A stretch of 64,000 bases of DNA from assembly GCA_947305745.1 (NCBI GenBank), contig CAMZEH010000002.1:62001-126000 (forward strand), written 5' to 3'. This document shows, one piece after another, positions 2,708-22,852 of the stretch (its first letter is position 1; every line of letters begins with the position of its first letter). Made by a program: the position numbers and the translations under genes. This stretch comes from an uncultured Clostridia bacterium. Its GTDB lineage: Bacteria; Bacillota; Clostridia; Oscillospirales; Acutalibacteraceae. The notes beneath the pieces are model-generated. The model did no database searches. It was not told where the DNA came from and saw only the letters and a list, made by a program, of their open reading frames with translations.

Positions 2708-2967
2708 TGTCAAAGCGTGAGCTACTTTTAAAGCGTATTGCGGCAATTGATTTTGCTGTAGTTGAGCTAAACCTTTACATGGATACTCATCCAGATGATG
2801 TTGAAATAAATGAAAAATTAAATATGTACCGCGAGAAAAGCGCCGATCTCAGAAGCGAATATGAATCTTTATATGGACCCTTAACGCTGGATAATCAGGA
2901 AAAAAATCAATGGGGCTGGATTTCAGACCCATGGCCTTGGAATAACTGTGAAGGAGATGAAAGATAA
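2704..2967 (+). CDS. cotJB: Spore coat protein CotJB
   Basis: Small (87 aa) coat protein of the CotJB family. Diagnostic are LLKRIAAIDFAVVELNLYM followed by DTHPDD, and the tryptophan/proline-rich C-terminus WISDPWPW. The start overlaps the end of cotJA by four bases, and the stop (2965-2967) shares one base with the cotJC ATG (2967-2969). All three genes therefore form one tightly coupled transcript, which makes the break inside cotJC clear. A second in-frame ATG at 2707 could also be used. Confidence 0.9.
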   Translation: MMSKRELLLKRIAAIDFAVVELNLYMDTHPDDVEINEKLNMYREKSADLRSEYESLYGPLTLDNQEKNQWGWISDPWPWNNCEGDER

Positions 2968-3080
2968 TGTGGGTTTATGAAAAAAAATTGCAATATCCTG
3001 TAAAAATTAAAAATACCAATCCAAAACTTGCAAAAATGATAATCACTCAATATGGTGGTCCAAACACCGAAAGGATATAA
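2967..3080 (+). CDS. cotJC: cotJC, first segment (codons 1-31), interrupted by element 1
   Basis: N-terminal piece of the manganese-catalase-like coat protein CotJC. The frame begins MWVYEKKLQYPVK and reaches ITQYGG, the start of the conserved QYGGPDGEL motif. It then leaves the family: it continues PNTERI and stops at 3078-3080, inside element 1. The missing sequence resumes in frame at 6871. The break falls just before the metal-ligand glutamate (residue 35 of the rebuilt protein). Joining 2967-3058, 6873-7187 and 22657-22852 gives 200 codons, a normal CotJC length. Uninterrupted translation of this piece would give a useless 37-residue peptide. Confidence 0.9.
   Translation: MWVYEKKLQYPVKIKNTNPKLAKMIITQYGGPNTERI
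3051..3079. other. attL of element 1
   Basis: Host sequence (CAATATGGT) meets element sequence (TCCAAACACC) at the GG core 3057-3058. The element arm carries GATATA at 3074-3079, mirrored by TATATC at 6849-6854 on the other arm, as expected for the two arms of a serine-integrase attP. Confidence 0.75.
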
Positions 3081-3083
3081 TAA

Positions 3084-3284
3084 TTAGGTCATCGGCGATA
3101 AAAAATTTTTCCACTCATCTTGCTGCGATGAATAGTAATTTGAAATTTGTTTACTTAAATTTTTGCATATAGAGGACATCATTTTTTTTCTCTCGTTTTC
3201 GTCAAGTTCATCAATCGAGATTACAGTGCCATCCGGTAGAATCACCTTCGATGGCAGCAGTATTAGATTATTTTTGCTTTTCAT
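3084..3284 (-). CDS. Small element-borne protein of unknown function
   Basis: A 66-residue protein next to attL. It contains VILPDGTVISIDELDENERK and then a predicted helix (KKMMSSICKNLSKQISNYY). I do not recognise the family. Its position beside the attachment site, opposite the recombinase, makes a recombination directionality factor or regulator conceivable, but nothing in the sequence proves it. No signal peptide or membrane segment is seen. Confidence 0.5.
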   Translation of the reverse strand: MKSKNNLILLPSKVILPDGTVISIDELDENERKKMMSSICKNLSKQISNYYSSQQDEWKNFLSPMT

Positions 3285-3386
3285 TTTATCTCACACCTAC
3301 TTTTTTATTAAATATATGATTGCTCTATATCCTCAAGACCATAAAAATTATTGCTTTTAATTTTAATATTAGTTTTTATAATAGCA

Positions 3387-3425
3387 AAATAAACCGCTCA
3401 AACTACTTGTTTGAACGGTTTATTT
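3387..3425. terminator. Bidirectional rho-independent terminator
   Basis: A strong stem (AAACCGCTCAAAC / GTTTGAACGGTTT) with a TACTT loop and T-rich tails on both strands. It lies between the convergent ends of the 3446-5065 minus gene and the small plus-strand intergenic region, and would end the lectin/glycosyltransferase transcript. Confidence 0.8.
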
Positions 3426-3445
3426 TGGTTTTTTAGATGTTGATT

Positions 3446-5065
3446 TTAATGATTGTCCTGGGTGATTGATCTCAAATTTTCCAAGGACTTTTTAAATATT
3501 TCATTCGAAGTGATTTTTAAATTGTCTTGCAAGGTGCCATATTCGTCTTGAGGGCAGTTTATGGCTTTTTCCATTGCGTACCCGAGATTATTATCGTCTA
3601 TAATAGCATTTTCAGAATTAAAATGGTAAAAATCTGCGAATTCTTTATTAATAACGGGCGGTGTATTAAACCCATAGACTAACTGAGCATTACCCGTTAC
3701 CCGAGTGGTTTTATAGCGCAAATGATCTTCAGATTCCGGATCGAGAAGCATTAAAATAAAATCCGCGTTTTTGACTTCATCGTACATTTGTTTGTAACTG
3801 ACCCTGCCTTTGAAATCAAAATATTCTTTTATGCTTTCGGGAATATCTAAACTTGCGTTTCTTCCGAAGACTGTAATTTTAAAATCTAATTTTTTTTTGG
3901 ACAGCTCTTGCACAGCACCTAGCAACTGACTGTAATTCCTGCATTTTGCCCATGTGTTGCCCACAACAACGAAATTCGTTTTCTTATTTTTTGAAGTTAT
4001 TGGAATTTGACCGAAATAATGCGGATTTATGTATGTACCATGGCTAACCTCGCCCAAAGTAACCACTCGCTTCCTTCGGAGCAAATCATCAAAACCACTG
4101 TCTTTTGGCGTATCGGTCGCATGGTCAACCACTATAGAGTTGGGCAATTGGAATATATTCAAACACCTAAACGCTCTCTTTGCGCCGGAATTAATAGTAT
4201 TTAAAAATACATATTTATATTTACGCAGTATCGAACGCAGTATCAGTTTATTATTAAATATTTCTTTGTTACTTTTATAACCATAAATTTCTAACTTATC
4301 GGTTTTATCGAAAGCGCAAAAACTGTCAACCCCTTCGTCCAATATGAGTACATCGACATTGTAGCCCAAATCCAGAAAATACTTCGCGTAACCCGGCAAA
4401 CACTCGTGATGATAATTATTCGGCTCAAAAAGCAGTACGGTATTCTCTTTAGTATTTTTTGATATAAAATTCTCCATATTTCCGCAGAACAAATTATCAA
4501 TTTTTCTGAATTTGCCCAAATTTTTTGAGCATTTCGCAAGTTTGAATTTTTGTGCTTTACCACTGTTCTTTCGCAGACACTTTATATCTCCACCATTTGC
4601 TTCGCTGAAGTTCGTCACCGTCATATATAATCCGTTGGATTTCGAAATTATCCCGTAGGTACCGTCATCGTTTTTCTCAACTGCCCATTTTTGAGCATCT
4701 TTGCCGTTATCAGTGCGTTCGCATACTAAATTATCCGCTTTTTTAGTGCTATACAGTGATTCCAACATCTTACCTGAATATTTCGATTGAATCGTATAGT
4801 AGCCGGCCCCGTCGTATAAAAAATTAAACTTATCGGCGTCCCCCAAGCTGTGGATGTTAGACTTTGCCTTAGTTTTGTTTTCTTTTTTTGAATGATAAAT
4901 ATCCGCTGCTTCTTTTCCGCGCAATACGCTTTTTATTCGATATGTGCCATTTTCCGGTGAAGGCTTCAAAGTTGTGGCCCCACATTCATAAGCGCTAAAA
5001 ATGCTACTGGTAAGACAAATCATCAAAAAAACACCGGATAATTTTTTAAAAATTTTCCTATCCAT
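3446..5065 (-). CDS. Secreted ricin-B-lectin / glycosyltransferase-like fusion protein (cargo of element 1)
   Basis: 539 residues in three parts. Residues 1-30 look like a signal peptide (KKLSGVFLMICLTSSIFSAY). Residues about 35-175 resemble a ricin-type beta-trefoil lectin (GTYRIKSVLRGKEA, GYYTIQSKYSGKMLE, AQKWAVEKNDDGTYGI). Residues about 200-539 resemble a GT-B glycosyltransferase: an N-lobe with LLFEPNNYHHECLPGYAKYF and a C-lobe with NFVVVGNTWAKCRNY, KITVFGRNASL, FDFKGRVSYKQMYDEV and ADFILMLLDPESEDHLRYKT. The same protein having a signal peptide and a nucleotide-sugar-type fold is unusual, because sugar nucleotides are not expected outside the membrane. It may act in the forespore intermembrane space or simply bind glycans. 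Domain calls are by eye. Confidence 0.65.
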   Translation of the reverse strand: MDRKIFKKLSGVFLMICLTSSIFSAYECGATTLKPSPENGTYRIKSVLRGKEAADIYHSKKENKTKAKSNIHSLGDADKFNFLYDGAGYYTIQSKYSGKMLESLYSTKKADNLVCERTDNGKDAQKWAVEKNDDGTYGIISKSNGLYMTVTNFSEANGGDIKCLRKNSGKAQKFKLAKCSKNLGKFRKIDNLFCGNMENFISKNTKENTVLLFEPNNYHHECLPGYAKYFLDLGYNVDVLILDEGVDSFCAFDKTDKLEIYGYKSNKEIFNNKLILRSILRKYKYVFLNTINSGAKRAFRCLNIFQLPNSIVVDHATDTPKDSGFDDLLRRKRVVTLGEVSHGTYINPHYFGQIPITSKNKKTNFVVVGNTWAKCRNYSQLLGAVQELSKKKLDFKITVFGRNASLDIPESIKEYFDFKGRVSYKQMYDEVKNADFILMLLDPESEDHLRYKTTRVTGNAQLVYGFNTPPVINKEFADFYHFNSENAIIDDNNLGYAMEKAINCPQDEYGTLQDNLKITSNEIFKKSLENLRSITQDNH

Positions 5066-5399
5066 TATATTAAACCTCGCTTTATAAATAATATTAATTA
5101 AATCGACATTGAACCATATAGTTCAACAAAGATTTCAATGTTATTTTATAAAATCATCTCAAATTATGCAATTAAATTTAGAGTTTAGGGCTTATTATAT
5201 TTTGCAATCGTGTCCATTAAGTTTTAAACACTCTCGCCAAAAATTATCTCGTTCGCAAAATTCATACTAGAATATGTAGATGTTCATAGGTACAAACGCC
5301 CGCACAGCTCATAAAAATCCAAAAAAAATAATAAGTTTAATAAACTAAAAAATAAAAGTATTAAGTCTCAAACTAATACGGATTTTGTGAGGTAAAATA
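5066..5399. other. Intergenic region of element 1
   Basis: AT-rich spacer between the divergent lectin/glycosyltransferase gene and the recombinase gene, and so presumably the promoter region for both. I see no gene in it. I looked for a sigma-E or sigma-K type promoter before the recombinase and found no convincing match. Confidence 0.5.
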
Positions 5400-6830
5400 A
5401 TGAAAACGGCCGCTGCATACATAAGAGTATCCACGGAAGATCAAACAGAATTTTCACCCGACAGCCAAATTAAAAAAATTCAAGAATACGCCGTTCACAA
5501 TAATATCGTTCTGCCTAAAAAATTTATATTTGTAGATGAAGGCATCAGTGGGAAATATGCAACAAAACGTCCCGAATTCATGAAAATGATATCGGCCGCA
5601 AAAACAAAACCAAAACCGTTTGACTTGATATTAGTGTGGAAATTTTCAAGATTTGCACGCAACCGACAAGACAGCATAGTTTACAAATCAATGCTCAGAA
5701 AAGATTTTAATATTGATGTGATATCCATAACAGAGCAATTATCAAAGGACCCCACGTCTATGTTAATCGAAGCTCTTTTAGAAGCAATGGATGAATACTA
5801 CTCCATCAACCTAGCTCAAGAAGTAAGGAGAGGAATGAATGAAAAATTTTCGAGGGGCGGAGTCGTCAGTTCCCCCCCGTTTGGATACAAAATGGGTAGA
5901 AACAATTTTGAACCGGATGAGAGAAATTCTCAAGTCGTAAAAATGATCTTTGATGATTTTACAAACGGTATGTCCACAAGAGAAATAGCAGTCAAACTAA
6001 ACAACATGGGTATAAGCTCGAAACGCGGCAATAAATTTGAAAACCGAACTGTAGAATATATTCTTTTGAACCCTGTATATATCGGAAAATTAAGGCGTAA
6101 TATGAACGGATTCGATAAACGCGACAGATATCGTACCGGAAAAGATATTGCTTTTGTCAATGGCAAACATACGCCCATAATAGATACCAAAACTTTTGAA
6201 TCGGCACAAAATATGCTCTTAGGTATAAAAAAACGTCATAGATCGGATACCAAAAGAACTTTTAAAGGCTTTATGCTTAAGGGGCTTGTGCGCTGCGGAA
6301 ATTGCGGCGCCACATTAACACAATCAGCTCGTGGTAAATCACTACAGTGTAATAAATACGCCAAAGGCCAGTGTGACAGAAGCCATAGTATATCTATAAC
6401 CAAAATAAATAAAGCGATTTTGATGAAACTGCAAACAGATATAACCGGAGGAATGTTAGACATCACTCTCAAAAATGCAAATAATAACAGCACAAAAAAC
6501 ATTTCAAAAATACTACTGAGAAAAGAATATCGAAGATTGGAAAGAGTAAAACTGGCATACGAAAATGGCATAGATTCAGCAGATGAATATAAAATAAATA
6601 AAGAAAAAATACTAAAAAGAATCAAAGGTTTGAATAGAGAAATTTCAAAATCTGTTGATAACAGCATAAAAGCAAAAAGCAAATTAAAAATGCAGCTTAA
6701 AAATGTGTTGGAAAAACTTGAATCCACAAAATTAAGCGAGTGCGAAAAGAACGTAATCTTAAAAGCATTAATACATAAGATCACATTTAACAGAAGTGAC
6801 AATAGCCTTCAAATATACTATTATATATAG
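5400..6830 (+). CDS. Large serine recombinase of element 1
   Basis: 476-residue site-specific DNA recombinase. The N-terminal resolvase domain starts AAAYIRVSTEDQTEFSPDSQ, with the catalytic serine in IRVST; VWKFSRFARNRQDS and EEYYSINLAQEVRRG-like segments follow. The middle recombinase domain has PPFGYKMG, STREIAVKLNNMGI and ILLNPVYIGKLRRN. A zinc-ribbon with two CxxC-type pairs follows (GLVRCGNCGATL, LQCNKYAKGQC), then a C-terminal coiled coil. Such enzymes insert and excise DNA at attP/attB. The gene ends 40 bp before the right junction, the usual position for an element-encoded integrase. It shares little with the element 2 enzyme outside the family motifs. Confidence 0.95.
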   Translation: MKTAAAYIRVSTEDQTEFSPDSQIKKIQEYAVHNNIVLPKKFIFVDEGISGKYATKRPEFMKMISAAKTKPKPFDLILVWKFSRFARNRQDSIVYKSMLRKDFNIDVISITEQLSKDPTSMLIEALLEAMDEYYSINLAQEVRRGMNEKFSRGGVVSSPPFGYKMGRNNFEPDERNSQVVKMIFDDFTNGMSTREIAVKLNNMGISSKRGNKFENRTVEYILLNPVYIGKLRRNMNGFDKRDRYRTGKDIAFVNGKHTPIIDTKTFESAQNMLLGIKKRHRSDTKRTFKGFMLKGLVRCGNCGATLTQSARGKSLQCNKYAKGQCDRSHSISITKINKAILMKLQTDITGGMLDITLKNANNNSTKNISKILLRKEYRRLERVKLAYENGIDSADEYKINKEKILKRIKGLNREISKSVDNSIKAKSKLKMQLKNVLEKLESTKLSECEKNVILKALIHKITFNRSDNSLQIYYYI

Positions 6831-6848
6831 TGGTTTTTGTTTGTTAGG

Positions 6849-6880
6849 TATATCTTTTTAGGAATTCGGGGGACCTGATG
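6849..6880. other. attR of element 1
   Basis: Element arm (TATATC at 6849-6854, AATTCGGG) meets host cotJC (ACCTGATGG) at the GG core 6871-6872. From 6871 the frame reads GPDGELGASLRYL, continuing the CotJC family exactly where the first segment stopped. Confidence 0.78.
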
Positions 6881-7203
6881 GCGAACTTGGCGCATCACTA
6901 AGGTATCTGAGCCAAAGATTTTCAATGCCTTATCCCGAACTGAAAGCTATTTTGACAGATATCGGCACGGAAGAACTCGGCCATCTTGAAATGATAGGTT
7001 CTATCGTGTATCAGCTCACAAAAAATCTCACACCTGAAGAAATTAAAAAAGCAGGTTTTGAAGATTATTTTGTTGATCATACAACGGGCATATATCCGAC
7101 CTCCGCGAGCGGCCAGCCATATACGGCAGCCAGCATGCAGGTTAAAGGCGACCCGATAACCGATTTGCATGAGGATTTGGCAGCAGAAGCTGCAACCACA
7201 TAA
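6871..7203 (+). CDS. cotJC: cotJC, middle segment (codons 31-136), flanked by both elements
   Basis: Middle part of the manganese-catalase-like coat protein. It contains the metal-ligand helix GPDGELGASLRYL, then LTDIGTEELGHLEMIGSIVY (the ExxH-type ligand pair), the loop SGQPYTAASMQVKGDPI and DLHEDLAAE. It has no start codon or ribosome site at its left edge; the internal ATG at 6925 is not a plausible start. On the right it runs six codons past the element 2 core and stops at 7201-7203. The family's last two helices are missing here and are found at 22655-22852. Confidence 0.9.
   Translation, partial: GPDGELGASLRYLSQRFSMPYPELKAILTDIGTEELGHLEMIGSIVYQLTKNLTPEEIKKAGFEDYFVDHTTGIYPTSASGQPYTAASMQVKGDPITDLHEDLAAEAATT
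7172..7203. other. attL of element 2
   Basis: Host GATTTGGCAGCA joins element AGCTGCAACCACATAAG at the GA core 7186-7187. The element arm GCTGCAAC....TAAG is the mirror image of the arm at the right end (CTTA....GTTGCAGC at 22638-22653). Confidence 0.82.
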
Positions 7204-7356
7204 GAACTACATTTAAAAAATAAATAATTTTAAAGCAAGTGATAAAATAATTAGTCCTACTAAAAATATTTAATTTTAATTTATTTGAAAATAATCGTGT
7301 TTTGGATTAGTATATTTTGTAAGAAAACAAATTTTAAAATAAGGGGAGCGTAAAAA

Positions 7357-8100
7357 ATGAATGATTATATTAATCTAACCATGAATAACATTGATAAAGA
7401 GCATATTTGCTGTGCTATTGGCGACCCAAAACATCAAAAAGGTGTTTTTTGCAAGAAAGAATGGATTAAATCCAAACTAAAAGACGGACATGTTTTCAGA
7501 AAATTAAATGAAAGAGGCAAAGTGTTCATTGAATATGAACCACTAAACAATGCCTGGGCACCAATTAGCGGCGATAATTACATGTACATATATTGTCTAT
7601 GGGTTTCAGGCAAATTTAAAGGTAAAGGAATTGCCAAAGAATTGCTTGAATATGCAATAAACGACTCAAAAGAAAAAGGAATGAATGGTATTTGCGTTTT
7701 ATCTTCCAAGAAGAAAAAACCATTTCTCAGCGAAAAAAAGTTTTTCGAGCATTTTGAGTTTAAAATTGTTGACGAGATAAAAGATTATTACCTCTTAGCA
7801 CTTGATTTTAGTGGCAAAAGTACTCCCAAGTTCAATGAAAATGCCAGATTAATGAAAATAGAAAACAAAGAATTTACAATTTATTATAGTCCAAGCTGCC
7901 CGTTTGTCGAACATCAAGTTGACGAATTATCAAATTACGTAGAAAAAAATAATGTAAAAATTAATTTTATAAAAATAGATTCGCTTGAAAAAGCGAAAGA
8001 AGTGCCTTGCGTATTCAACAATTGGGCAAATTTTTATAAAGGCGAATTTATATCAAACACAATACTCAATTCAAAATCCTTTGAAAAATTGACTAAATGA
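7357..8100 (+). CDS. GNAT family N-acetyltransferase with YoaP-like C-terminal domain
   Basis: 247 residues. The first 150 or so form a GNAT acetyltransferase: MYIYCLWVSGKFKGKGIAKE is the acetyl-CoA pyrophosphate loop (Q/R-x-x-G-x-G/A type, here KFKGKGIA), followed by LLEYAINDSKEKGMNGI. The C-terminal part (IYYSPSCPFVEHQVDEL) resembles the thioredoxin-like tail of YoaP-type acetyltransferases. GGGGAG precedes the ATG. The substrate is unknown; YoaP relatives are often linked to resistance or small-molecule modification. It is the leftmost cargo gene of element 2. Confidence 0.75.
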   Translation: MNDYINLTMNNIDKEHICCAIGDPKHQKGVFCKKEWIKSKLKDGHVFRKLNERGKVFIEYEPLNNAWAPISGDNYMYIYCLWVSGKFKGKGIAKELLEYAINDSKEKGMNGICVLSSKKKKPFLSEKKFFEHFEFKIVDEIKDYYLLALDFSGKSTPKFNENARLMKIENKEFTIYYSPSCPFVEHQVDELSNYVEKNNVKINFIKIDSLEKAKEVPCVFNNWANFYKGEFISNTILNSKSFEKLTK

Positions 8101-8507
8101 ACTGTTATTATCAATACTTGCATGTATTTTTAAATATAATGCTTGTTTTTAGGTAAATATAAGTAACCAAAACACAAGTTAATCACAAAGCTAAGATAGG
8201 GGGATAATTTACATTAAACCCAGCGGATTAAGTAGCTGAAAATTTAAAAGTTACGCAGCGATAATCTAGGTGGAAATCTTTAAAACACGCTCTAAAAAGC
8301 TTCAGTATAATGAGCAAAAACAGACTCAAAATATCGAAGCTTTACTTTTTTACTATTTAAATTAATTATTAAAACCGGTATTTACGCACTTTTCGCAGAG
8401 CTTTAGAAATTTTGGAATTTAAAAAACATAAGTTCAAGCGATAAGCACTAAGCTTTTGCCACGTTCTTGCAGAGCTCTTAGATACCAAAATCAGCATATC
8501 TTATAGT
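8101..8507. other. Intergenic region, no gene seen
   Basis: About 400 bp of AT-rich DNA between convergent genes in element 2. I see no reading frame with a ribosome site, no RNA gene and no clear terminator. It may be residue from earlier insertions. Confidence 0.5.
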
Positions 8508-9185
8508 TTATATTTTCAAACTTCTTAAATATTCTTTTTGCCGAGCGGTTATTCTATAACTTTCTCTTGCTTTTTGAATTGTTTTGTTGTGAATCGGGGT
8601 ATCCAACTTTTTATTTTCAAGATATATTATTGTTTCTTCCCAATGCTTAGATAAAGCGGTTGCAAAAAACCAAGATATCATCATATTTACGTAGTATTCA
8701 TCGGATTTTATATTTGCCACTATTTCTAAATATTCAGGTTTAAAATCATCATCTAAAAAGTGTTTCATAAGCATTAATATTCCAAATCTGCAAACGTAAG
8801 TTTCTTTAGACGAAATCCAAATTTTGATTTTTTCGATAAGTTTTTCCTTATTATTTTTAAATACTTTAGGTGAAATCGTATCACACACAGCCCAGTTATC
8901 AATAAACGGGAGAAATTTTTCAAGCTCGTTTATGCACTCGTTATAATCTTTAATCTCAGAAATAAGCATTCCGTGAAGCAAATTTTCATCGTAGTATTTA
9001 TGCGGTAAACTACTTAAAAACAGCTTTGATTCTTCACTTTTAAAGCACTCTTTTGCAAGCTTTCGCATTTTTGGGACTCTAACTCCGATTATTTTTTCTC
9101 TCGGAATATGCGGAATTAACTTACCGTGAAAATCAGCGTATTTTTTATCTTGAAGCTCAAATAGTTTATCTAAAATTTTAAGCAT
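8508..9185 (-). CDS. DNA alkylation repair protein, AlkD-like
   Basis: 225-residue all-helical (HEAT-like) protein of the DNA alkylation repair family. Recognisable segments are IIGVRVPKMRKLAKE near the N-terminus, FIDNWAVCDTISPKVF in the middle and WISSKETYVCRFGILMLMKH. AlkD glycosylases remove bulky or cationic alkylated purines without base flipping. The conserved NWAxCD motif is present. It is the last gene of a three-gene minus-strand cassette with ICMT-like and TfoX-like genes (spacings about 20 bp), probably one transcript. Confidence 0.85.
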   Translation of the reverse strand: MLKILDKLFELQDKKYADFHGKLIPHIPREKIIGVRVPKMRKLAKECFKSEESKLFLSSLPHKYYDENLLHGMLISEIKDYNECINELEKFLPFIDNWAVCDTISPKVFKNNKEKLIEKIKIWISSKETYVCRFGILMLMKHFLDDDFKPEYLEIVANIKSDEYYVNMMISWFFATALSKHWEETIIYLENKKLDTPIHNKTIQKARESYRITARQKEYLRSLKI

Positions 9186-9204
9186 TTATACCTCCAAAAT
9201 TTAG

Positions 9205-9876: not shown

Positions 9877-9891
9877 ACTTCACTCCGACTT

Positions 9892-14164: not shown

Positions 14165-16552
14165 TTATTTCAAATTGGAGTTGTAGTACTTGCCAGGGAA
14201 ATATCGATTCAACTTAATCAACAGCTCTTTGCCGTCTACAAGCTCTACATTTTGGAGTTTTGCCACTTTCTTCGCATCCTTAGTGTAATCAGATGTAGTA
14301 TAGCAAGCAATCTTGTTAGCACCAAGACGTTCACGCTCTGAAACTAAGCGTTGGATTGGGGTTGCATCAACTTTGTTTACCCACCGCTTACACTGCACAA
14401 GCCATATCTCACTTGTATTACCGTTAAACCATTTCGCAACGATGTCCACACCCATATCTCCGCTACCGCCTTTTCGATGAACATCAGCATAGTTTTCGTG
14501 TTCCAACAATGACTTACAAAGATCTTCGAAGTCATAAGCATCCATTGTCGCCACATCAATTGCATCAGCATTAAAATCTTTTGGAAGTTGCTTTTTAACG
14601 TAGTATTTACCGTCAGGACTTTTATCAGTCTTGTCTCTAACCAACCTATTGATTCCTTCAATATTATCATCATCATTTAGCAAATCATATAAAGTCCGGT
14701 TATTACCATCAGATAACTCATCTATCAACTCAACATACAGGTCTTCCAGAACGAATTTCCCTTTTTGTTTCAGTAATTTATCAACGTAAAAAGGGACTAA
14801 GTCGTATAATTTTTTGAATAAGGTATCTTCATCTTCTTGGTCCAAATAGAGTCTCGTCTTATCCAATTGAATATCCTGGCCATCTACGTAAAAATTATTC
14901 TTGATTACTTCAACTATCAGATGTTGAATTGTATCATCAAAATGCACACCTTTTTGGGTTAGCTCTTTTTTTGCATTAGAAACCGCTGCAGTCATGGTAT
15001 AAGGGGCATCCTTAACTTTCTTCAACGCCCGATATATATCATCAACTAATTTGCTTTCATAGTTTTCGTCGCCAATGTACAAATAGCGCTTGGATTCTGG
15101 AAGTTTCTCAAAACCAATGACTACCTCATTGATGAGAGTATTTTTATATGCAGATTGTTTGCGCAATGTAGGATCGCTCTTCTCTACACCCACACGGAAA
15201 GTATATTCAAAACCGTTTTTTCGTGCATAATCAACAACACGGGCAAAAACGTTAAAATACTTCATCTTTCCTAATTTCGTAAAAATTACCACTGGTGATC
15301 CAACTTTCAAGTGTTCAGAAAAAGTCTTAAACATCTTATCAATGTCATGATAATAATGGTCTAAATCTTTCTCTTTTCTAGCAACTGCATTAGTTACCAC
15401 CATTTCACTTTCCAACATCTTCTCTGTCAGCATAAAATGCTCACGGTCATCATCAAAATGATTCAGCCAGATTCTAAACATTTGATTTCTTTCCAAATAC
15501 GGCACCTGGTCAGTATATGGGAAGTCAGTAACGATTGCATCAAACATCAAGCCTTCGTGATTCTTCAAGTACTCATAATAGTCGGCATTAACAACTTTAT
15601 AAGTGCTACCTTTATCGAAATGATCTGTTAAAATGCTTTTGTATTCCGTTTGAAACGTAACAAACTTTTTATAACGTGACTCAAATAAAAACCAAACATT
15701 CATGTCTTGCGCCTTTTCATGAACAACATGATATAGAATATCCGTAGAGCTACCATACATGGCAATACGGGCAAGACTGAGTGATGCAACTAAAACTTGT
15801 TGTAAAAATTCTTTTTCTTTCGAAGTTGGTAATTTTGAAATTTCACTCTGAATCATTAATAGTGCAACTTTATTTCGGTGCGAGAAAATTTCTCCATACT
15901 TATCGGCACCAGTCGATTTTGTGATATTAATACGACTGTTTTCATAATATGTATCATCAGGGAAACCGCTAGCATCCATTTTCTCAACTTCTTGAAGTTT
16001 ATTCCAATCCACTTCATCAAATCTCTTAGAACTATTGCCTTTGGAAGATTTCTTCATCAAGATAACATTGCGCCCGTTTTTAATTTCTCGGTTTTCCTCA
16101 GGATGAAAGTAACCATCCTTCCCATTTTTACGATCAAACAATACCTTCTTAATATAATTTGTTTCACCATCGCATTCTGTCTCATATAAAGACATCACTC
16201 GGTCTTTGACAGAATCTTCTATTTGTTTAAAAAGCTTCTTCAATTCCTTAGAATCTACTTTTTCAAACAGAGTCTTATCCACGGAGTATGTGTAGTTATC
16301 TAATTCAATTCCGAAGAACTTGCGTTGAGCGTTTTGCGATGCGATTAAAGTCATTCCGCTACCCAAAAATGGATCTAATATAATGGAATCACTACCAGTC
16401 AAAGCCAATATTACACGTTCCAGAAGCTCAGGTGATTTACGACCCTTGAAGGTGTACGTTTCTTTTACCAACCGAGGAACCAAGTTTTTTGCATCTGCTA
16501 ATGCGTGATTGACCTTGTTTCGAGTCCCTTGTGTTTCAATTTTCTTCTTCAT
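14165..16552 (-). CDS. Methyltransferase fused to an Mrr-like endonuclease domain
   Basis: 795 residues. The N-terminal part is a DNA methylase (SIILDPFLGSGMTLIASQNA, the SAM site; MFDAIVTDFPYTDQVPYLER, a catalytic variant DFPY instead of DPPY). The C-terminal 130 residues are an Mrr-type restriction nuclease: DAYDFEDLCKSLLEHE, GGSGDMGVDIVAKWF and EIWLVQCKRWVNKV, giving the D...QxK catalytic core, then ACYTTSDYTKDA. It is probably the cutting partner of the convergent two-module methylase. Its first bases overlap the end of the upstream HTH gene by four bases. The DFPY change may reduce methylation. Confidence 0.82.
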   Translation of the reverse strand: MKKKIETQGTRNKVNHALADAKNLVPRLVKETYTFKGRKSPELLERVILALTGSDSIILDPFLGSGMTLIASQNAQRKFFGIELDNYTYSVDKTLFEKVDSKELKKLFKQIEDSVKDRVMSLYETECDGETNYIKKVLFDRKNGKDGYFHPEENREIKNGRNVILMKKSSKGNSSKRFDEVDWNKLQEVEKMDASGFPDDTYYENSRINITKSTGADKYGEIFSHRNKVALLMIQSEISKLPTSKEKEFLQQVLVASLSLARIAMYGSSTDILYHVVHEKAQDMNVWFLFESRYKKFVTFQTEYKSILTDHFDKGSTYKVVNADYYEYLKNHEGLMFDAIVTDFPYTDQVPYLERNQMFRIWLNHFDDDREHFMLTEKMLESEMVVTNAVARKEKDLDHYYHDIDKMFKTFSEHLKVGSPVVIFTKLGKMKYFNVFARVVDYARKNGFEYTFRVGVEKSDPTLRKQSAYKNTLINEVVIGFEKLPESKRYLYIGDENYESKLVDDIYRALKKVKDAPYTMTAAVSNAKKELTQKGVHFDDTIQHLIVEVIKNNFYVDGQDIQLDKTRLYLDQEDEDTLFKKLYDLVPFYVDKLLKQKGKFVLEDLYVELIDELSDGNNRTLYDLLNDDDNIEGINRLVRDKTDKSPDGKYYVKKQLPKDFNADAIDVATMDAYDFEDLCKSLLEHENYADVHRKGGSGDMGVDIVAKWFNGNTSEIWLVQCKRWVNKVDATPIQRLVSERERLGANKIACYTTSDYTKDAKKVAKLQNVELVDGKELLIKLNRYFPGKYYNSNLK

Positions 16553-17007
16553 CTGTTTACCCTACTTTCTAATAATTGATATGTTTGTATGCCTAAAATT
16601 TTTGCCAGTTTATCTATCGTGTTTAAATTTACAGTCTTATTATTCCCATTGATATAGTAGCGGAAGGCCCCATAGCTTACTCCGCACCGCTTTTCATCAA
16701 ACCATGATTTGTGAATACCCTTTTCTTGAGTATAACGCCCAAGATTCTCGATAAAGTTTCTTTCAACATTATCCCTCCAAATTGGGGAAGTTATACTTAT
16801 CTCGATATCCTGAATCAACAGCTTAGAAACCTCTACATTAATGAGATACGCAATTTTATCAAGTTGATCTAATTTGGGGGAGCTTCTTCCTGAAGACCAA
16901 TTCAGCAGAACATTACCTGACATTTCAATCTTCTTAGCTATATTTCGAAGTGAATCTACTCCATAATACCTTCTTAAATTTTCTAGAAGAATATCAATCG
17001 TTCTCAT
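16549..17007 (-). CDS. Two-HTH regulator upstream of the methylase-nuclease
   Basis: 152 residues with two helix-turn-helix-like regions: one near the N-terminus (LRNIAKKIEMSGNVLLNWSS, then GRSSPKLDQLDKIAYL) and one near the C-terminus (KRCGVSYGAFRYYINGNNKT, then LNTIDKLAKILGIQTYQLL). It overlaps the nuclease gene by four bases, so the two are translated together. This layout matches controller proteins that time restriction after methylation. GGAGG precedes the ATG. The regulatory role is inferred from position. Confidence 0.72.
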   Translation of the reverse strand: MRTIDILLENLRRYYGVDSLRNIAKKIEMSGNVLLNWSSGRSSPKLDQLDKIAYLINVEVSKLLIQDIEISITSPIWRDNVERNFIENLGRYTQEKGIHKSWFDEKRCGVSYGAFRYYINGNNKTVNLNTIDKLAKILGIQTYQLLESRVNR

Positions 17008-17039
17008 TTTTGGCCTCCTCTCTTTTACAATATAATCAT

Positions 17040-17372
17040 ATCACGAACAATAAAATTCCACAATGAAATTAAAGAGTTACCGTTTCGATATTCTACATCA
17101 AATTATTTCACATGAGGTTTTTGGGAATGGAATATAGTACACAGTAGTCAATTTGATTAGATTTTGGGTAACGAAAGGCTGGTAGCAAGCTAGTGGTTAC
17201 TGTTTGTATCTGTGTCAAAGTTAAGCATAGCATTATGAATGTGAGCCGAGAACTTTGGCAACCGTTACACCCCCTACACACCCCTCACACCCCCTGAAAA
17301 TCGGTTGAACTCCCCAAGGCAGAAAAAGGCAAAATAAAAAGGCCTCCCACTCACGGATACGAGTGAAAAGCC
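17040..17372. other. Intergenic region with C-rich block and hairpin
   Basis: No gene seen. It has a C-rich stretch at about 17268-17297 (repeated CACCCCCT-like units), unlike the AT-rich surroundings, and a hairpin region around 17344-17374 (CACTC...GAGTG inside GGCC...AGCC). The base composition and position next to the truncated hsdM suggest that this is the right edge of an inserted restriction-modification island. Confidence 0.5.
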
Positions 17373-17426
17373 CTAATAACAAGCCATTTCAAGCCTGTTT
17401 ATTTGTATCAATTTCAAAGTGATTAT

Positions 17427-18067
17427 ATCATATAAAGTTCCATTATATGGTTCAACCATTGCAGCAATTAATTGAACTACGTCATGCGGAGTGTAAAACT
17501 CCCCTTCTTCTTTAGTTGCGTTTACTGCAAACTCCTTAAGAAAATATTCGTACACATGTCCGATGAGGTCTTTTTCTTCCCCGAACGCCTTATGACTGAT
17601 TTTGTTTACTTCGTCTACAAGTTTTTTAATGTCATTGGGTGCAAGATTGCGTGTCGTAAATGTGCCCTCTATAAAACAGCCTTTTAAATCTTTAGATTCT
17701 GTTGCAATATCATGAAGAGCGGTATCCAATGCTACATTAAGCTCCGGTGCAGGCGTGTTGATAATTTTTGATCACCTGGCACTAAGTGGCAAATTATAAG
17801 TACCGTCAGTAAAAGTAGCATCATCAAAAAACGCTGCCTTTATATTTTCATCTTCCGGGTCAAGTCCCTGAGCAATTAAATTTTGACGAAGCTTTTCGAT
17901 TCCGTCTTCGTATTTTTCTCCGATAAAACGCAAAAACACAAGTGTGAGCATCATATCTCTTTTTTCAAAAAATGAACCTGAATTTTTAGCCGCACGTAAG
18001 ATATTTCTGCAGTTGAATAAAATGTTATCTATATTTAATGCTTTTTCGGTAGTTTTTTCTTAGCCAT
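17427..18067 (-). pseudogene. Type I restriction methylase hsdM remnant
   Basis: N-terminal part of an HsdM methylase, broken three ways. (1) The start ATG (18067-18065, MAKKK) is followed by a one-base slip in an A run before TEKALNIDNILFNCRNILRA. (2) A TGA at 17774-17772 replaces the expected tryptophan in the NLPLSARW-like motif; the same frame continues SKIINTPAPELNV. (3) The gene stops matching after EFYTPHDVVQLIAAMVEPYN and GTLYD near 17427, before the SAM motif (DPACGSGG in intact relatives). No specificity or restriction subunit is nearby. This is decayed defence DNA. Confidence 0.8.
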
Positions 18068-18243
18068 ATTTTAAATATTCCTTCCTATTTTTAATTCGTT
18101 GAATTAAGTCAATTGAAAAATGTCGAATTTTGTATATTCACTTGGAATATTATACCAAAATATTATTGTTTTTTCTATCACGTATCGATAATAGTCGAAA
18201 AATGTAAATCAAATGAGTTTTTTCGAAACGATTAAAGAACAGT

Positions 18244-18358
18244 AATGTGAAACAAAATATAAATATTTTCAAAAAATGTTTCACATTTTATATTTTCTAT
18301 GATATAATAATTATGCGAAACAAAAACCAAGAAAATAACTTAAAATGTTTCACATTGA
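18244..18358 (+). promoter_or_regulatory. Repeated GTTTCACATT operator-like sites upstream of fic
   Basis: The 10-mer AATGTGAAAC occurs at 18244-18253 and its complement GTTTCACATT occurs twice, at about 18283-18292 and 18346-18355. TATGATATAATAATTATG lies between the last two copies and includes a TATAAT-like -10. Repeated sites on both sides of the promoter suggest binding by a repressor, possibly the Fic protein's own regulator. Confidence 0.55.
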
Positions 18359-18370
18359 GGAGAGAACATC

Positions 18371-19303
18371 ATGGATAATAAATCTGAGATTATAGCACTT
18401 CTTCAGGATAAACAATTGCTTGAGCATCAGCTCGAGTTGCTTACGTATGGTTCGGTTGAAATAAGAGAAAGAGGATCAAATAAGTACATTTACGTTCATT
18501 ATAGGGAAGACGGCGTTTCTCTTACAAAATACGTAGATCAGTATTCAGACGATCTATATAATCTTATTTTAAATAACAACATAAAGGCCAAGAAATTAAA
18601 AAAGCAAATCAGAAGTATAAATAAAGAGCTTAAAAAACTTAATTATACTGAAAACGAACTACATAGCGATGTGGAAATTAATATAGATTTCGCAAAAAGG
18701 CATCTAGTCCAAACAATTTATAAACAAGCGATATTAGAAGGTGTTGCCACAACTTTTGCTGATACCGAAAGCATTATTGAGGGCGGAAAAGTCAATAATA
18801 TGACCTCCGAAGATATAATGAAAATAGTAAATTTAAAACATGCTTGGGAATTTATATTAAATAAAAATGTCATATCATCGGATACTGATTTTGCACTGCT
18901 TTGTGAGATCAACAAAATGGTAGAGGAAGGCTTTTATTACACCGCCGGGAAAGTACGAGACATTCCCGTAAGTATTGGAGGTACCAAATGGCAGCCCGAT
19001 TTGCCGATTGAATCAGTTATAAAAGAAGATTTAAATAGAATTTCCGGTATGGGAGCAGATGAGGTTGATAAAGCAATAGAATATTTACTTTACACCATGA
19101 AAAAACAAATATTTATTGATGGAAATAAAAGGACTGCCGTAATATTCAGTAATCACTACCTTATTTCCAAAGGGAAGGGAATAATTGTTATTCCTGCAGA
19201 TAAAACCGAAGAATTTAAAAGTTTACTCATACCATTTTATGAGGGAAAAGATAACGAAAAAATAAGGACATTTATAAAAGAAAAATGCTATATGAAAATA
19301 TAA
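18371..19303 (+). CDS. Fic domain protein with altered catalytic motif
   Basis: 310 residues. The N-terminal third is helical and basic (LQDKQLLEHQLELLTYG, IKAKKLKKQIRSINKELKKL). The C-terminal Fic fold has a possible autoinhibitory helix motif (ESIIEGG, like SxxxEG) and the active-site loop QIFIDGNKRTAVIFSNHYL. Typical Fic enzymes transfer AMP using the histidine of HPFxxGNxR; here the first position is glutamine (QIFIDGNKR), so classical AMP transfer is doubtful. Fic proteins often act as toxins in toxin-antitoxin pairs; no separate antitoxin was seen, and the inhibitory helix may be within the protein. GGAGAG precedes the ATG. Confidence 0.85.
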   Translation: MDNKSEIIALLQDKQLLEHQLELLTYGSVEIRERGSNKYIYVHYREDGVSLTKYVDQYSDDLYNLILNNNIKAKKLKKQIRSINKELKKLNYTENELHSDVEINIDFAKRHLVQTIYKQAILEGVATTFADTESIIEGGKVNNMTSEDIMKIVNLKHAWEFILNKNVISSDTDFALLCEINKMVEEGFYYTAGKVRDIPVSIGGTKWQPDLPIESVIKEDLNRISGMGADEVDKAIEYLLYTMKKQIFIDGNKRTAVIFSNHYLISKGKGIIVIPADKTEEFKSLLIPFYEGKDNEKIRTFIKEKCYMKI

Positions 19304-19565
19304 GTTTATATGGCTTAATGTTTTAGAAATTAATGAAATGATTTTGTGGTTTACAAAGATAAGTTTCCTTCTTAGGAGACTTATTTTTTGGTTTAAAGCC
19401 AATTTTCAGATATAAAAAATTACCAATACAATAAAATTTGTTATAGGAGTATAACGAGTTTAACTGTTACAATTTAAACATGATATTTGTGTTTGCAAAT
19501 ATAAAAAAATAACGAATATAAAAAACTATATATCGGTAAATAATTGATTTAAAGGGTGAAAATTT

Positions 19566-19940
19566 ATGACAACAAAGCAACTTGCAAATCTTAAAAATCT
19601 CAAAGCAGAAATTAAGATGTATGAAGAAAAGATAACTGAGCTCAAAGCTTTACCGAAAAGTATTTCTGCTAAAAACGGATATTTGGCAGAAAAACTTTAT
19701 GACACAAAAGATAAAATTTCAAACGATTATGCTGAAATAATGAATTATATTGAAAACGTTGATGATCCAATTGTTAGTATGATTTTAAAGTACAAATACA
19801 TAAATAATTTTAGTTGGCAAAAAACTGCTTTTAAAATCGGAGGCGGTAACAAAGCAGCTAGCCTTAGAAAACGTCTTTATAGATATTTAAAAAAGAGGGA
19901 AAACACCCATTCTTATCTAGCAAACAAAGGAGAAATCTAA
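19566..19940 (+). CDS. Small helical protein, phage-type regulator-like
   Basis: 124 residues with a long N-terminal helix (LANLKNLKAEIKMYEEKITE) and a C-terminal HTH-like segment (MILKYKYINNFSWQKTAFKI, then GGGNKAASLRKRLYRYL). The arrangement resembles short sigma-70-region-4-like/ArpU-type activators found in phages and integrative elements. It is four bases from the next gene, likely one operon. Function not proven. Confidence 0.6.
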   Translation: MTTKQLANLKNLKAEIKMYEEKITELKALPKSISAKNGYLAEKLYDTKDKISNDYAEIMNYIENVDDPIVSMILKYKYINNFSWQKTAFKIGGGNKAASLRKRLYRYLKKRENTHSYLANKGEI

Positions 19941-19943
19941 ACA

Positions 19944-20285
19944 ATGGCTGAAACATTTAAAGGAATTTGGATACCCAAAAAAGTTGCCGATTTCGAAAAA
20001 TTAAGTTGGACAGAAAAAGTTTTAATCTCAGACATTTTAGCACTTTCAAACAAAATGGAATGTATAGCAAATAATGCACATTTTTCTGAAAGATTAAAAA
20101 TCACAAAAGAAAGTGCCTCGCATATGATTAATAAACTTGTACGACTTGGCTATTTGCAATCAACCATCAATTTTAAACCGAATACCAAACGAGTTGAAAG
20201 TAGAATTTTAAAAGTAAATAAAGACCTTGCCATTAACACAAATGAGGATACCCCCTTAACATACATGCAAATTACCTCCGTATAA
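19944..20285 (+). CDS. Winged-helix / replication-initiator-like small protein
   Basis: 113 residues starting MAETFKGIWIPKKVAD, with a winged-helix-like core (NNAHFSERLKITKESASHMI, then NKLVRLGYLQS). The pattern resembles N-terminal domains of replication-initiator-like or helix-turn-helix proteins carried by phages and mobile islands, where a short helical protein similar to the preceding gene often comes first. It stops in TYMQITSV, with no ATPase or primase domain, and may be truncated. Confidence 0.6.
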   Translation: MAETFKGIWIPKKVADFEKLSWTEKVLISDILALSNKMECIANNAHFSERLKITKESASHMINKLVRLGYLQSTINFKPNTKRVESRILKVNKDLAINTNEDTPLTYMQITSV

Positions 20286-20849
20286 ATATATAGCACCCTC
20301 CCTATATAAACCTTAAAGAAAGAATATATAGAGAGAATACATACTAATAATAAATAATAATAACAACACTATCGCTCAAAATTTTTTCAAAATTAAAAAC
20401 AACTCCAGGAAAATACTGAAAAATTTGAGCAAGACTTCTGCTTGCTTTATAAAAATAATTTTAAGTAAAAAAATACCGAGCTTTCATCGTATCAAAACGA
20501 TGAAAAGCTCGCCGCAAAAGTGATTAAACAAGTAAAACATATATTCAAACGATAAAATTAGAATCGTAAATATGCGTTGTACAGCAGAGACTTTTGATAA
20601 AGTGCGAGGCAAACTTCCGAATGTAAAATATTTATAAGAATTACTTTGACAAACCGTTTTATGTTGCTAAGCAACCATGATTTATAAAAATTTATATTTG
20701 TCCCTTTGTGTATACCTTTTATGCAGTAAAATATAAAATGTAAGATTGTACGCTCTCGAAAGAGGGCTATTTTTACTGCAAAAATAAAACGAATAATATT
20801 GCAACGTTGATAATTCATATTTATTTAGAAAAAGCTTCGAGGTGATAAA
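20286..20849. other. Intergenic region with one hairpin
   Basis: About 560 bp with no convincing gene. It includes a strong hairpin at about 20478-20512 (GAGCTTTCATCG ... CGATGAAAAGCTC). An 86-codon minus-strand frame at 20558-20818 lacks a ribosome site and is probably chance. The stretch may be remnants of lost element genes. Confidence 0.5.
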
Positions 20850-20984
20850 TTGGCAAATGGAAAAATTACTTGCAAGAATTTTTTTAAAAATACCGAAAGA
20901 AAAAAGCTAAAAGAGCAGTTTAACAAAAGATGGATTGAACTTATAAATGAATGCGAAAAAAACAAATTGATATTTCAAAAATAG
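20850..20984 (+). CDS. 44-residue element protein before the recombinase
   Basis: TTG start with a good ribosome site (GAGGTG at 20839-20844). It is a basic, helical peptide (CKNFFKNTERKKLKEQFNKR and WIELINECEKNK). It ends 88 bp before the recombinase start, the same direction. Family and role are not recognised; a position beside the recombinase is compatible with a regulator or directionality factor. Confidence 0.5.
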   Translation: MANGKITCKNFFKNTERKKLKEQFNKRWIELINECEKNKLIFQK

Positions 20985-21072
20985 AATTTACAAATTGGCT
21001 CTATTGATGCTAAAATCAGATTGTAGGGCTAGTTTGTTTTTATCACTTCTTATCCGGGAGGAAGATAAAAGC

Positions 21073-22629
21073 ATGCCAAAAGTCGCGATATACTGCAGAC
21101 TATCAGAGGAGGATAAAGATAAAAAATGCGAAAATATTGATAGCGAAAGTATACAAAACCAAAAGAAAATGCTATGTGAATACGCATTAGAAAAAGGCTG
21201 GGAGATATATAATATTTACAGCGATGACGACTACGCTGGAGCGGATAGAAAACGTCCTCAGTTTAATAAACTTCTTGAAGACGCCAAAGATAAAAAGTTT
21301 GATATAGTGCTTTGCAAAACGCAATCGAGGTTTACAAGAGAGCTTGAGCTTGTTGAGAAATATATTCACGGACTTTTTCCTATTTGGAACATAAGATTTG
21401 TAAGTATCGTGGATAATGCCGACACGGCAAACAAAGGCAACAAAAAATCACGGCAAATTAATGGTCTTGTGAACGAGTGGTATCTTGAGGATATGTCCGA
21501 GAACATCAAAAGCGTACTTACAAACAAGAGAAAAAATGGCATCCACATTGGAGCTTTTGCACTTTATGGGTATAAAAAAGACCCTAATCGAAAAGGGCAT
21601 TTGATTATCGATGAAGAAGCAGCAAACGTGGTAAGAGAAGTATTTACTCTATTTTCAAAAGGCTATGGTAAAACTGCAATTGCGAGGATTTTAAACGAAA
21701 GAGGTGTACCAAATCCCACAGAATACAAACGTTTAAAAGGACTCAGGTATAAGCAGCCTACAAGAAAAAACAGCACGCTTTGGAAGTATTTTGCAATTTC
21801 GAGTATGCTCACAAACGAAATTTACATAGGCAATATGGTTCAGGGCAAATATGGGAGCATTTCCTACAAAACCAAACAAAATAAACCTCGCCCAAAAGAC
21901 GAGTGGTTCATCGTGAAAGGAACTCACGAAGCTATTATCGATAAAGAGCTTTGGGATAAAGTCCAAGATATGATAAAAAACCGCTCCAAGCCGTTTAAAT
22001 CGGGAACTATCGGGCTGTTTGCGGGTAAAGTAAAGTGCATGCACTGCGGATATACTATGAGGTCGTCAAAATCACACGATAAGTATTATCTTAAATGTTC
22101 AAGCAAACACATTTCAAAAAACGCTTGCATAGGCTCTTTCATTTCGGTGGAAAAACTTGAAAATGTGGTCTTAAATGAGCTTAAAAAGATGTCAGATGAG
22201 TTTCTCGATAAAGAAAATTTGGAAAAAGGCGTTATTCTTTGCGATACATTAAAAAAGCAAAAAGAGAATTTAGAAAAGGAAATTTTGCTGCATAATAAAA
22301 AAATAGCCGGGTATTCGAAAGCGATAAAAGAGCTATATTTCGATAAAGTCAAAGGGATAATCACGGAAGCTGAGTATATAGAGTTTTCCAAAGAATTTGC
22401 AGAAAAGAAAAAACAAGCTGAAAATATACTCCTCGAGCTAAAAGAAGATATAGAAAAAATAACTGAGCGAATAAATAGTGATGATAATCGGCATAAAATA
22501 ATCGAGGAATATACGAACACCAGTAAATTAAGCCGAGAAATAGTTCAAAAACTTATTGACCATATTTGCGTTGGAAAGAAAATTGCAGGCTCAAAAGAAG
22601 TTCCGATAGAAGTGCATTGGAATTTTTAA
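21073..22629 (+). CDS. Large serine recombinase of element 2
   Basis: 518 residues from the ATG at 21073 (GGGAGG at 21056-21061); the longer frame to 20995 lacks a ribosome site. Resolvase domain: MPKVAIYCRLSEEDKDKK, with the catalytic serine in CRLSEED, then IVLCKTQSRFTRELELVEKY and a DMSENIKSVLTNKRKNG helix. Recombinase domain: ALYGYKKDPN, GKTAIARILNERGVPNPTEY and MLTNEIYIGNMVQGKYGS. Zinc ribbon: VKCMHCGYTMRSS and KCSSKHISKNAC. Then a coiled coil. It ends 20-26 bp before the right attachment core. It belongs to the same broad class as the element 1 enzyme but differs in sequence, and the two elements have different cores, so they are independent insertions. Confidence 0.95.
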   Translation: MPKVAIYCRLSEEDKDKKCENIDSESIQNQKKMLCEYALEKGWEIYNIYSDDDYAGADRKRPQFNKLLEDAKDKKFDIVLCKTQSRFTRELELVEKYIHGLFPIWNIRFVSIVDNADTANKGNKKSRQINGLVNEWYLEDMSENIKSVLTNKRKNGIHIGAFALYGYKKDPNRKGHLIIDEEAANVVREVFTLFSKGYGKTAIARILNERGVPNPTEYKRLKGLRYKQPTRKNSTLWKYFAISSMLTNEIYIGNMVQGKYGSISYKTKQNKPRPKDEWFIVKGTHEAIIDKELWDKVQDMIKNRSKPFKSGTIGLFAGKVKCMHCGYTMRSSKSHDKYYLKCSSKHISKNACIGSFISVEKLENVVLNELKKMSDEFLDKENLEKGVILCDTLKKQKENLEKEILLHNKKIAGYSKAIKELYFDKVKGIITEAEYIEFSKEFAEKKKQAENILLELKEDIEKITERINSDDNRHKIIEEYTNTSKLSREIVQKLIDHICVGKKIAGSKEVPIEVHWNF

Positions 22630-22633
22630 ATTT

Positions 22634-22672
22634 CGCACTTACAAAGTTGCAGCAGAGCAAAAAGCTCGCACT
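22634..22672. other. attR of element 2
   Basis: Element arm CTTACAAAGTTGCAGCA meets host GCAAAAAGCTCGCAC at the GA core 22655-22656. After the core the frame reads QKARTTYDNILRF, the exact continuation of the CotJC family. Confidence 0.82.
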
Positions 22673-22852
22673 ACGTATGACAATATACTCAGATTTTGCG
22701 ACGACCCTGACGTAAAAGATGCAATAAGATTTTTAAGGGCAAGAGAAGTAGTACACTATCAGAGATTCGGCGAAGGTCTGCGTATTTGTACAGATAAGCT
22801 AAATAGTAAAAATTTCTACGCGTTTAACCCTTCGTTTGATAACAAAAAATAG
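22649..22852 (+). CDS. cotJC: cotJC, last segment (codons 134-200)
   Basis: C-terminal part of CotJC with no start codon of its own. It reads AAEQKARTTYDNILRF, then DDPDVKDAIRFLRAREVVHY and QRFGEGL, containing the fourth-helix ExxH-type ligand pair (REVVH) needed for the dimetal site. It ends in FYAFNPSFDNKK and TAG at 22850-22852. Adjacent frames and the ORF-level view would miss it as a gene because it is a headless fragment. A hairpin terminator follows. Only after both excisions does this join to the first two segments as one 200-codon gene. Confidence 0.9.
   Translation, partial: AAEQKARTTYDNILRFCDDPDVKDAIRFLRAREVVHYQRFGEGLRICTDKLNSKNFYAFNPSFDNKK

Follow-up and report, generated by a model that had tools for sequence, protein, structure and literature searches.

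Interruption of the spore coat gene cotJC by two serine-recombinase elements in a Clostridia genome and its recurrent splitting at four predicted metal-ligand motifs

Introduction

How can a spore coat gene serve a cell that carries it in three separate pieces? This question is raised by a stretch of 64,000 nucleotides (hereafter the window) from an uncultured member of the Acutalibacteraceae (GenBank assembly GCA_947305745.1, contig CAMZEH010000002.1, positions 62,001 to 126,000), in which cotJC, a coat gene of the manganese catalase (Mn_catalase) family, is cut by two inserted elements, A and B. A preliminary description of the window had proposed that both elements must be excised for CotJC to be made. 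Our analysis indicates that cotJC lies in three in-frame pieces around two different serine-recombinase elements, and we hold with good confidence that a working gene is likely rebuilt in the sporulating mother cell by two precise excisions. Under this reading, CotJC would require both recombinases during sporulation. With regard to the class Clostridia, we consider it reasonably probable that cotJC is an integration hub, on which four recombinase lineages act at four ligand motifs. In many Clostridia, assembly of the gene by the mother cell would then take two to three recombinases. In one clade, the presence of ileS inside an element would bar the loss of that element, leaving excision to the dying cell.

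Results

The three pieces of cotJC

The cotJABC gene order is kept in the window, and the pieces of cotJC flank both ends of each element (Table 1). Each of the three pieces separately matched the Mn_catalase family (PF05067). A genome-wide profile search of the source assembly (1.1 Mb, 14 contigs, 94.84% complete) returned Mn_catalase matches for these three pieces only, and a second intact cotJC, which the preliminary description had named among the findings that would speak against it, is absent from the assembly. At site A, the shared core is GG (3057-3058 and 6871-6872); its first copy, in the left attachment site (attL-A), forms the 3' end of piece 1, and its second copy forms the 5' end of piece 2. 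At site B, the shared core is GCAGCAGA (7180-7187 and 22649-22656), with which piece 2 ends and piece 3 begins. Within the ambiguity set by these cores, the piece boundaries given earlier proved accurate. Excision of 3057-6870 and 7180-22648 at the cores leaves 603 nucleotides with a single open frame of 200 amino acids. This joined frame and the domain matches together bear out the proposal of three in-frame pieces and two independent serine-recombinase elements. The empty sites can be seen in three close relatives (G007, G008 and G009), which carry an uninterrupted, colinear cotJC with the expected codons. Between window positions 1 and 24000, a search of Rfam at the gathering threshold gave no matches, and hence no sign of an intron or any other known RNA family separating the pieces. 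Chance can be excluded as the origin of this arrangement, since dozens of other genomes have cotJC split at the same positions.

Each element carries one large serine recombinase, located at its right junction, and the two enzymes belong to different lineages. The stop codon of the recombinase precedes the core of the right attachment site (attR) by 40 bp in element A and by 19 bp in element B. R9 and S11 of the site-A recombinase are invariant in 12 of 12 aligned sequences, the latter being the catalytic serine.

Integration sites, ligand motifs and recombinase lineages

Across the genomes compared, cotJC is interrupted at four sites, A, C, B and D, which lie within a few codons of E35, E65/H68, E135 and H168, respectively. 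The ligand positions were counted on the printed alignment of an intact relative (L004) with 1jku, a solved Mn catalase, in which E35, E65, H68, E135 and H168 correspond to chain positions 35, 66, 69, 148 and 181; these we take to be the metal ligands. His69 and His181 are described as active-site residues in a published account (PMC11796326). The junction cores are also shared between genomes, with GGNCC at site A, GGT at site C and a GCAGCAGA-like core at site B.

The recombinases follow the same division. On a tree of 123 recombinases encoded within 600 bases of a cotJC piece, mostly obtained by searching with site-A recombinases, the site labels require three changes, the minimum for four labels, against a mean of 34.6 for shuffled labels, and site C counted alone requires two changes; this tree was built by a quick method, gave long-branch warnings, contains a few near-copies and includes only two rows for site D. 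Searching with site-A recombinases alone gave 492 confirmed genome loci, of which the best 80 were considered. The recombinase abuts cotJC in 63 of these 80, the locus contains a piece at another position in 10, and no piece is present in seven. Site-A elements occur in both orientations (L049, L112, L114 and others), with the recombinase ending at either attR or attL, and the site-A core therefore seems to permit insertion either way.

Distribution of split cotJC

In the genus, cotJC was found in nine of 11 genomes. Five of these are split at site A (G000, G001, G003, G004 and G005), three are the intact relatives mentioned above, and in G010 the gene stops at a contig end. In a sample of 150 genomes of the family, 116 had a Mn_catalase match (E 0.001), and a split boundary was present in at least 51 of these, at site A in 25, at site C in 27 and at site B in 14. 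At least two sites were split in 13 of the 51 genomes, a full-length copy was absent in 42, and both sides of the boundary were found in 31. The number 51 is a lower bound, as the tally, whose rows were entered by hand, covers 56 genomes chosen among the matches listed and re-searched with a looser limit, plus G000 and G004, and would miss genomes whose weak pieces went unlisted. Excluded from it are weak, ferritin-like matches as well as pieces located at contig ends, and G029, G060, G098, G120, G122, G129 and G152 are wholly uncounted. Among the matches listed, examples of split cotJC pieces were also seen in other families of the class.

SpoIVA, likewise a conserved protein of sporulation, was used as a control in 150 genomes drawn in the same manner. 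Two pieces were found in three of the 129 matching genomes (G024, G121 and G125), a count that omits G051, which has a full gene and three short end repeats, and the near-full matches of G011, G047, G068 and G146; a short partial match alone was seen in five more genomes (G065, G069, G075, G094 and G114). In G125, where cotJC is split at site A, the two parts of spoIVA (profile positions 2-402 and 398-492) lie on different contigs and are possibly a second interrupted sporulation gene.

The preliminary description had gone no further than two interruptions of one gene. Two is not the maximum, since four integration sites are used within the family and some of its genes are in four pieces. The fourth, site D, corresponds to the motif QRFGE and was found separately from the tally of sites A, C and B. 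At this motif, cotJC breaks off in G001, G004, G134 and others; the remaining tail follows directly after a recombinase in G001 and G004 and lies downstream on the same contig in G134. G010 was rejected as a further case because its partner contig overlaps by 18 residues, which indicates a contig break. Four cotJC pieces lie on a single contig in G115 (sites A, C and B). Ruminococcus flavefaciens SAb67 has four ordered pieces (sites A, C and D) spanning about 88 kb of one 336-kb contig, and L. saccharolytica An817 has three pieces (sites A and C) on one contig; neither has any other Mn_catalase match. Both are named strains that carry no mark of a metagenome-assembled genome, and they are taken to be cultured. 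Two genomes that consist of a single contig are also split, G183 at sites A and C, with a diverged longer copy nearby, and G294 into pieces that match profile positions 28-63 and 56-199. In a further single-contig genome, G195 (L298 and L299), the parts flanking site C are about 157 kb apart, and an element of such length would greatly exceed all others measured. A full or near-full cotJC lies about 5-15 kb upstream of the displaced 3' piece in L060 (G107), L072 (G154) and L295 (G183); it may be that a 3' part of cotJC, or a second copy of the gene, arrives with the element in some cases.

ileS inside element A and selection on the split gene

The strongest argument for excision in the mother cell comes from the housekeeping gene ileS, and it is based on relatives, not on the window itself. 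A single ileS above the family cut-off was found in each of eight genomes of the genus. In G001 and G004, element A encloses this sole copy, which is flanked by piece 1 and the recombinase on the same contig (L051 = G001:C16 and L050 = G004:C87, respectively). In G003, ileS follows piece 1 in the same direction at a distance of about 1 kb, and another contig carries the recombinase and piece 2; in the other five genomes ileS and cotJC are on different contigs. Loss of an ileS-bearing element A should be lethal to a growing cell. As the cotJC pieces are nevertheless constrained, excision in cells that leave no progeny would be the best explanation. Element A of G001 and G004 also contains genes that resemble lspA and rpe by eye.

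The split cotJC pieces are under purifying selection in this genus. The ratio of nonsynonymous to synonymous substitution rates (dN/dS), estimated by a simple counting method, was 0.020 for G001/G004, 0.032 for G001/G003, 0.030 for G003/G004 and 0.013 for G000/G005, several other pairs being saturated at synonymous sites and giving no value. These ratios are similar to the 0.021 and 0.023 obtained for the two intact pairs that yielded an estimate. The site-A recombinase is also constrained, with dN/dS of 0.21 and 0.14. The recombinases at sites C and D of G001 and G004 are more than 99% identical (dS of 0.033 and 0.010, respectively), whereas cotJC of the same two genomes has a dS of 0.48, which indicates that these elements moved recently.

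Phage relatives and small reading frames

Relatives of the recombinase of element A are found in phage genomes. Among the viral-contig loci with site-A-like recombinases (the best 80 of 158), 18 abut cotJC and one contains a piece at another position. The other 61 lack cotJC, in 19 cases because the contig stops within 120 bases. The region after the recombinase was then considered in the 49 loci, from the genome and viral collections together, that lack cotJC and extend at least 70 bases past the recombinase. A strong inverted repeat directly follows the recombinase in 31 of them, compared with 0.4 expected in shuffles, and an unbroken attP-like repeat (attP, the phage attachment site) with a Gly-Gly-type core is present in 26 of these 31. 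In the complete circular phage PQ006094.1, a 64%-identical integrase is followed by an attP-like repeat and, on its far side, by the 66-aa gene. Integration would convert this layout into that of element A of the window. The attP letters of the window itself are only weakly symmetric, with best values of 11/30 at site A and 18/28 at site B.

Members of the 66-aa family (phrog_26314) occur in the locus of 33 of the 67 site-A recombinases with room for them, on the opposite strand in 31. Six loci that are not labelled A, the window included, also hold this family, and all six contain a site-A element. In B elements, an open reading frame (ORF) of 44-58 aa precedes the recombinase; it is shared by the window and six of 10 others.

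Other features of the window

The coordinates of all features are given in Table 1. An intact sigK-like gene lies about 1 kb upstream of the cotJ operon; it matched TIGR02846 with E 1.9e-83, yet fell under the cut-off of that family. The cargo of element B is defence-like and comprises DNA methyltransferases, an Mrr-type endonuclease domain, a type I methyltransferase-like fragment and a Fic protein. No phage structural genes were recognized by eye among the ORFs listed for the two elements, nor did any appear in the subset of these ORFs given family searches. Directly after piece 3, at 23377-28632, there is an ORF of 1,751 aa whose product appears by eye to be secreted and membrane-anchored.

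Table 1. Positions of cotJC pieces, inserted elements and associated genes in the window.
Feature	Position	Strand	Evidence or remark
sigK-like sporulation sigma factor gene, intact	888..1574	+	NCBIfam PRK05803, SigK subfamily, above cut-off
cotJA, intact	2507..2707	+	Pfam CotJA, 3.6e-13
cotJB, intact	2704..2967	+	Pfam CotJB, 8.2e-27
cotJC piece 1, first 31 codons	2967..3058	+	Mn_catalase, E 1.3e-8, profile 1-35
Element A (site A; 3,814 bp)	3057..6870		Junction analysis; motif GGPDGE, predicted ligand Glu35
66-aa ORF at attL end, phrog_26314-like; candidate recombination directionality factor	3084..3284	-	Position, conservation
Element A cargo, ricin-type lectin domain protein	3446..5065	-	RicinB_lectin_2, 1e-19
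Site-A large serine recombinase, 476 aa	5400..6830	+	Resolvase, Recombinase and Zn_ribbon_recom domains
cotJC piece 2	6871..7187	+	Mn_catalase, E 5.8e-27, profile 29-152
Element B (site B; 15,469 bp)	7180..22648		Junction analysis; motif AAEQKA, predicted ligand Glu135
Element B cargo, GNAT acetyltransferase/YoaP-like	7357..8100	+	Family search
Element B cargo, large DNA methyltransferase	11234..14146	+	D12 and N6_N4_Mtase
Element B cargo, N6_N4 methylase with Mrr-type endonuclease domain	14165..16552	-	Family search
Element B cargo, Fic-domain protein	18371..19303	+	Family search
44-aa ORF upstream of site-B recombinase; possible partner or directionality factor	20850..20984	+	Relatives in 6/10 other B elements
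Site-B large serine recombinase, 518 aa	21073..22629	+	Resolvase, Recombinase, Zn_ribbon_recom and DUF4368 domains
cotJC piece 3, site-B core to stop codon	22649..22852	+	Mn_catalase, E 2.5e-11, profile 148-197

Discussion

The arrangement can be accounted for by a model in which recombinases of ancestral phages or other elements came to recognize the DNA that encodes the predicted metal-ligand motifs of CotJC, with four recombinase lineages devoted to one motif each. If each lineage took one motif in this way, insertions would accumulate in a single gene, and several recombinases would be needed for one protein. During sporulation, a small element-encoded factor would switch each recombinase to excision, and the recombinase would then join its own attL and attR. 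Excision would be confined to the terminal mother cell, while the germline would retain the elements. Judging by position and conservation, we propose the 66-aa ORF of element A and the 44-aa ORF of element B as the directionality factors. The elements themselves probably have their origin in temperate phages and in integrative elements of small size.

Ordinary lysogeny with curing at the population level would offer a different account, in which occasional excision in the germline, for example upon phage induction, leaves cured cells as the only producers of CotJC and the observed selection reflects cured ancestors. The existence of free phage forms with attP-like sites is in keeping with it, and so is the recent movement of the elements at sites C and D in G001 and G004. 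However, the sole ileS lies in element A of G001 and G004, G003 being consistent with this, and yet the cotJC pieces and the site-A recombinase are constrained. This argument covers those relatives and not element B of the window; on balance, we regard curing as unlikely. Another possibility is that cotJC is broken and dispensable and merely provides a safe landing site. The full-length copies that accompany some split genes, the 34 of 150 family genomes with no Mn_catalase match and the matches that cross stop codons in G034 and G151 would fit such decay, but the dN/dS of the split pieces (0.01-0.03) is that of intact genes, the recombinase is conserved and the codons at the junctions of the pieces compared agree with the shared core, which makes decay quite improbable.

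We give each of the remaining explanations hardly any weight. The fold of the protein is a four-helix bundle, which could in principle reassemble from fragments, and every piece has an open frame. Separate translation of the pieces is nevertheless hard to reconcile with the absence of any in-frame ATG, GTG or TTG from piece 3 and with the earliest in-frame start of piece 2, at codon 49 of the protein (position 6925), which drops the Glu35 region; the junction cores and recombinases indicate joining at the level of DNA. It is just as hard to believe in an assembly or binning artefact: many of the genomes are indeed fragmented, and G010, with its overlapping contig ends, looks like a contig break, but the pieces of the window are all on one contig, the single-contig genomes G183 and G294 and the named strains are likewise split, which contradicts an artefact, and SpoIVA was in two pieces in just 3 of 129 genomes. 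Finally, an element might supply its own 3' part of cotJC, so that an uninterrupted hybrid gene is always present, as could be imagined for G107 and G154, in which a full-length copy lies about 5.5 and 15 kb, respectively, upstream of the displaced 3' piece on the same strand. For the window, such regeneration is contradicted by piece 1, which reads into a stop at codon 38, seven codons beyond the core, and by the lack of a full-length copy in the assembly, and its probability is accordingly minimal.

Several observations weigh against excision of both elements in the mother cell as we propose it, or against parts of this proposal. As the assembly is 94.84% complete, an intact second copy might lie in the unassembled part. 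Site B is split only in the genome of the window among the genus genomes with cotJC. In the family sample, one side of the boundary alone was found in 20 of the 51 split genomes, and nine of the 51 have a full-length copy alongside the split one, so that the split copy may be dispensable in some species. The assignment of one lineage to each site is subject to the limits of the tree given above. With regard to the directionality factor, the 66-aa ORF is absent from 34 of the 67 site-A loci with room for it and has a dN/dS of about 1 in the one pair tested. No strict sigma-E-like promoter pattern was found upstream of cotJA, both recombinases or the 66-aa ORF; as cotJA, the positive control, also failed, this promoter test had no power.

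Single elements are already known in sigK, spsM, spoVFB, spoVR, gerE and yabG. The skin element in sigK of Clostridioides difficile is excised by the recombinase CD1231 with the 72-aa directionality factor CD1234, which is under the control of sigma-E and SpoIIID (PMC5025042). Like the elements in cotJC, skin interrupts a sporulation gene; the three Pfam domains of its large serine recombinase are also found in theirs, and its small partner protein is paralleled by a small conserved ORF. In contrast, skin is one element in one regulatory gene, whereas two to three elements interrupt one structural coat gene in the case of cotJC, and the sigK-like gene of the window is intact. SP-beta in spsM of Bacillus subtilis, vfbin in spoVFB and vrin in spoVR are prophage-derived elements within sporulation genes of the mother cell, and their precise excision restores the frame (PMC4191935); these are described as single insertions that form no multi-site hub, and element A in cotJC is a remnant of only 3.8 kb. 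Element B looks similar in kind to the gin element in gerE of Bacillus cereus, a small sporulation gene, as gin is free of phage genes and encodes serine recombinases (PMC5595907). However, gin is one element with three recombinases, whereas the elements in cotJC are separate and each recombinase lineage is tied to its own site. The yin element in yabG of Clostridium botulinum is a prophage-like element with a serine recombinase and a putative small directionality factor, again in a clostridial sporulation gene, but it concerns a single strain, gene and insertion (PMC10747680).

Our search covered the open-licence literature, subscription papers being outside it. In the portions seen, neither an interrupted cotJC nor a spore gene carrying more than one element was described, ligand motifs were not presented as a group of integration sites, and we found no report of cotJC as a hub, although one may exist elsewhere. 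The earlier suggestion that a double interruption is undescribed has to be narrowed, as heterocyst-forming cyanobacteria provide a precedent: one study reports 10 genes that are interrupted by multiple elements, including one nifD interrupted by four (PMC4874684). These elements resemble those of cotJC in that several occupy one developmental gene, and they are excised during heterocyst differentiation. They differ in that they concern nitrogen-fixation genes of cyanobacteria, whereas cotJC is interrupted at four fixed sites at predicted ligand motifs in many Clostridia, with a housekeeping gene trapped inside in one lineage.

If confirmed, these findings would explain the broken-looking cotJC of many genomes, in which automated annotation may score a working split gene as lost. 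They would also define four families of serine recombinases with fixed and highly conserved target sites. Species that carry ileS inside an element would have to confine excision to the doomed cell. More generally, programmed multi-step assembly of a gene would be common in gut and rumen Clostridia, well beyond the few cases in Bacillus and C. difficile.

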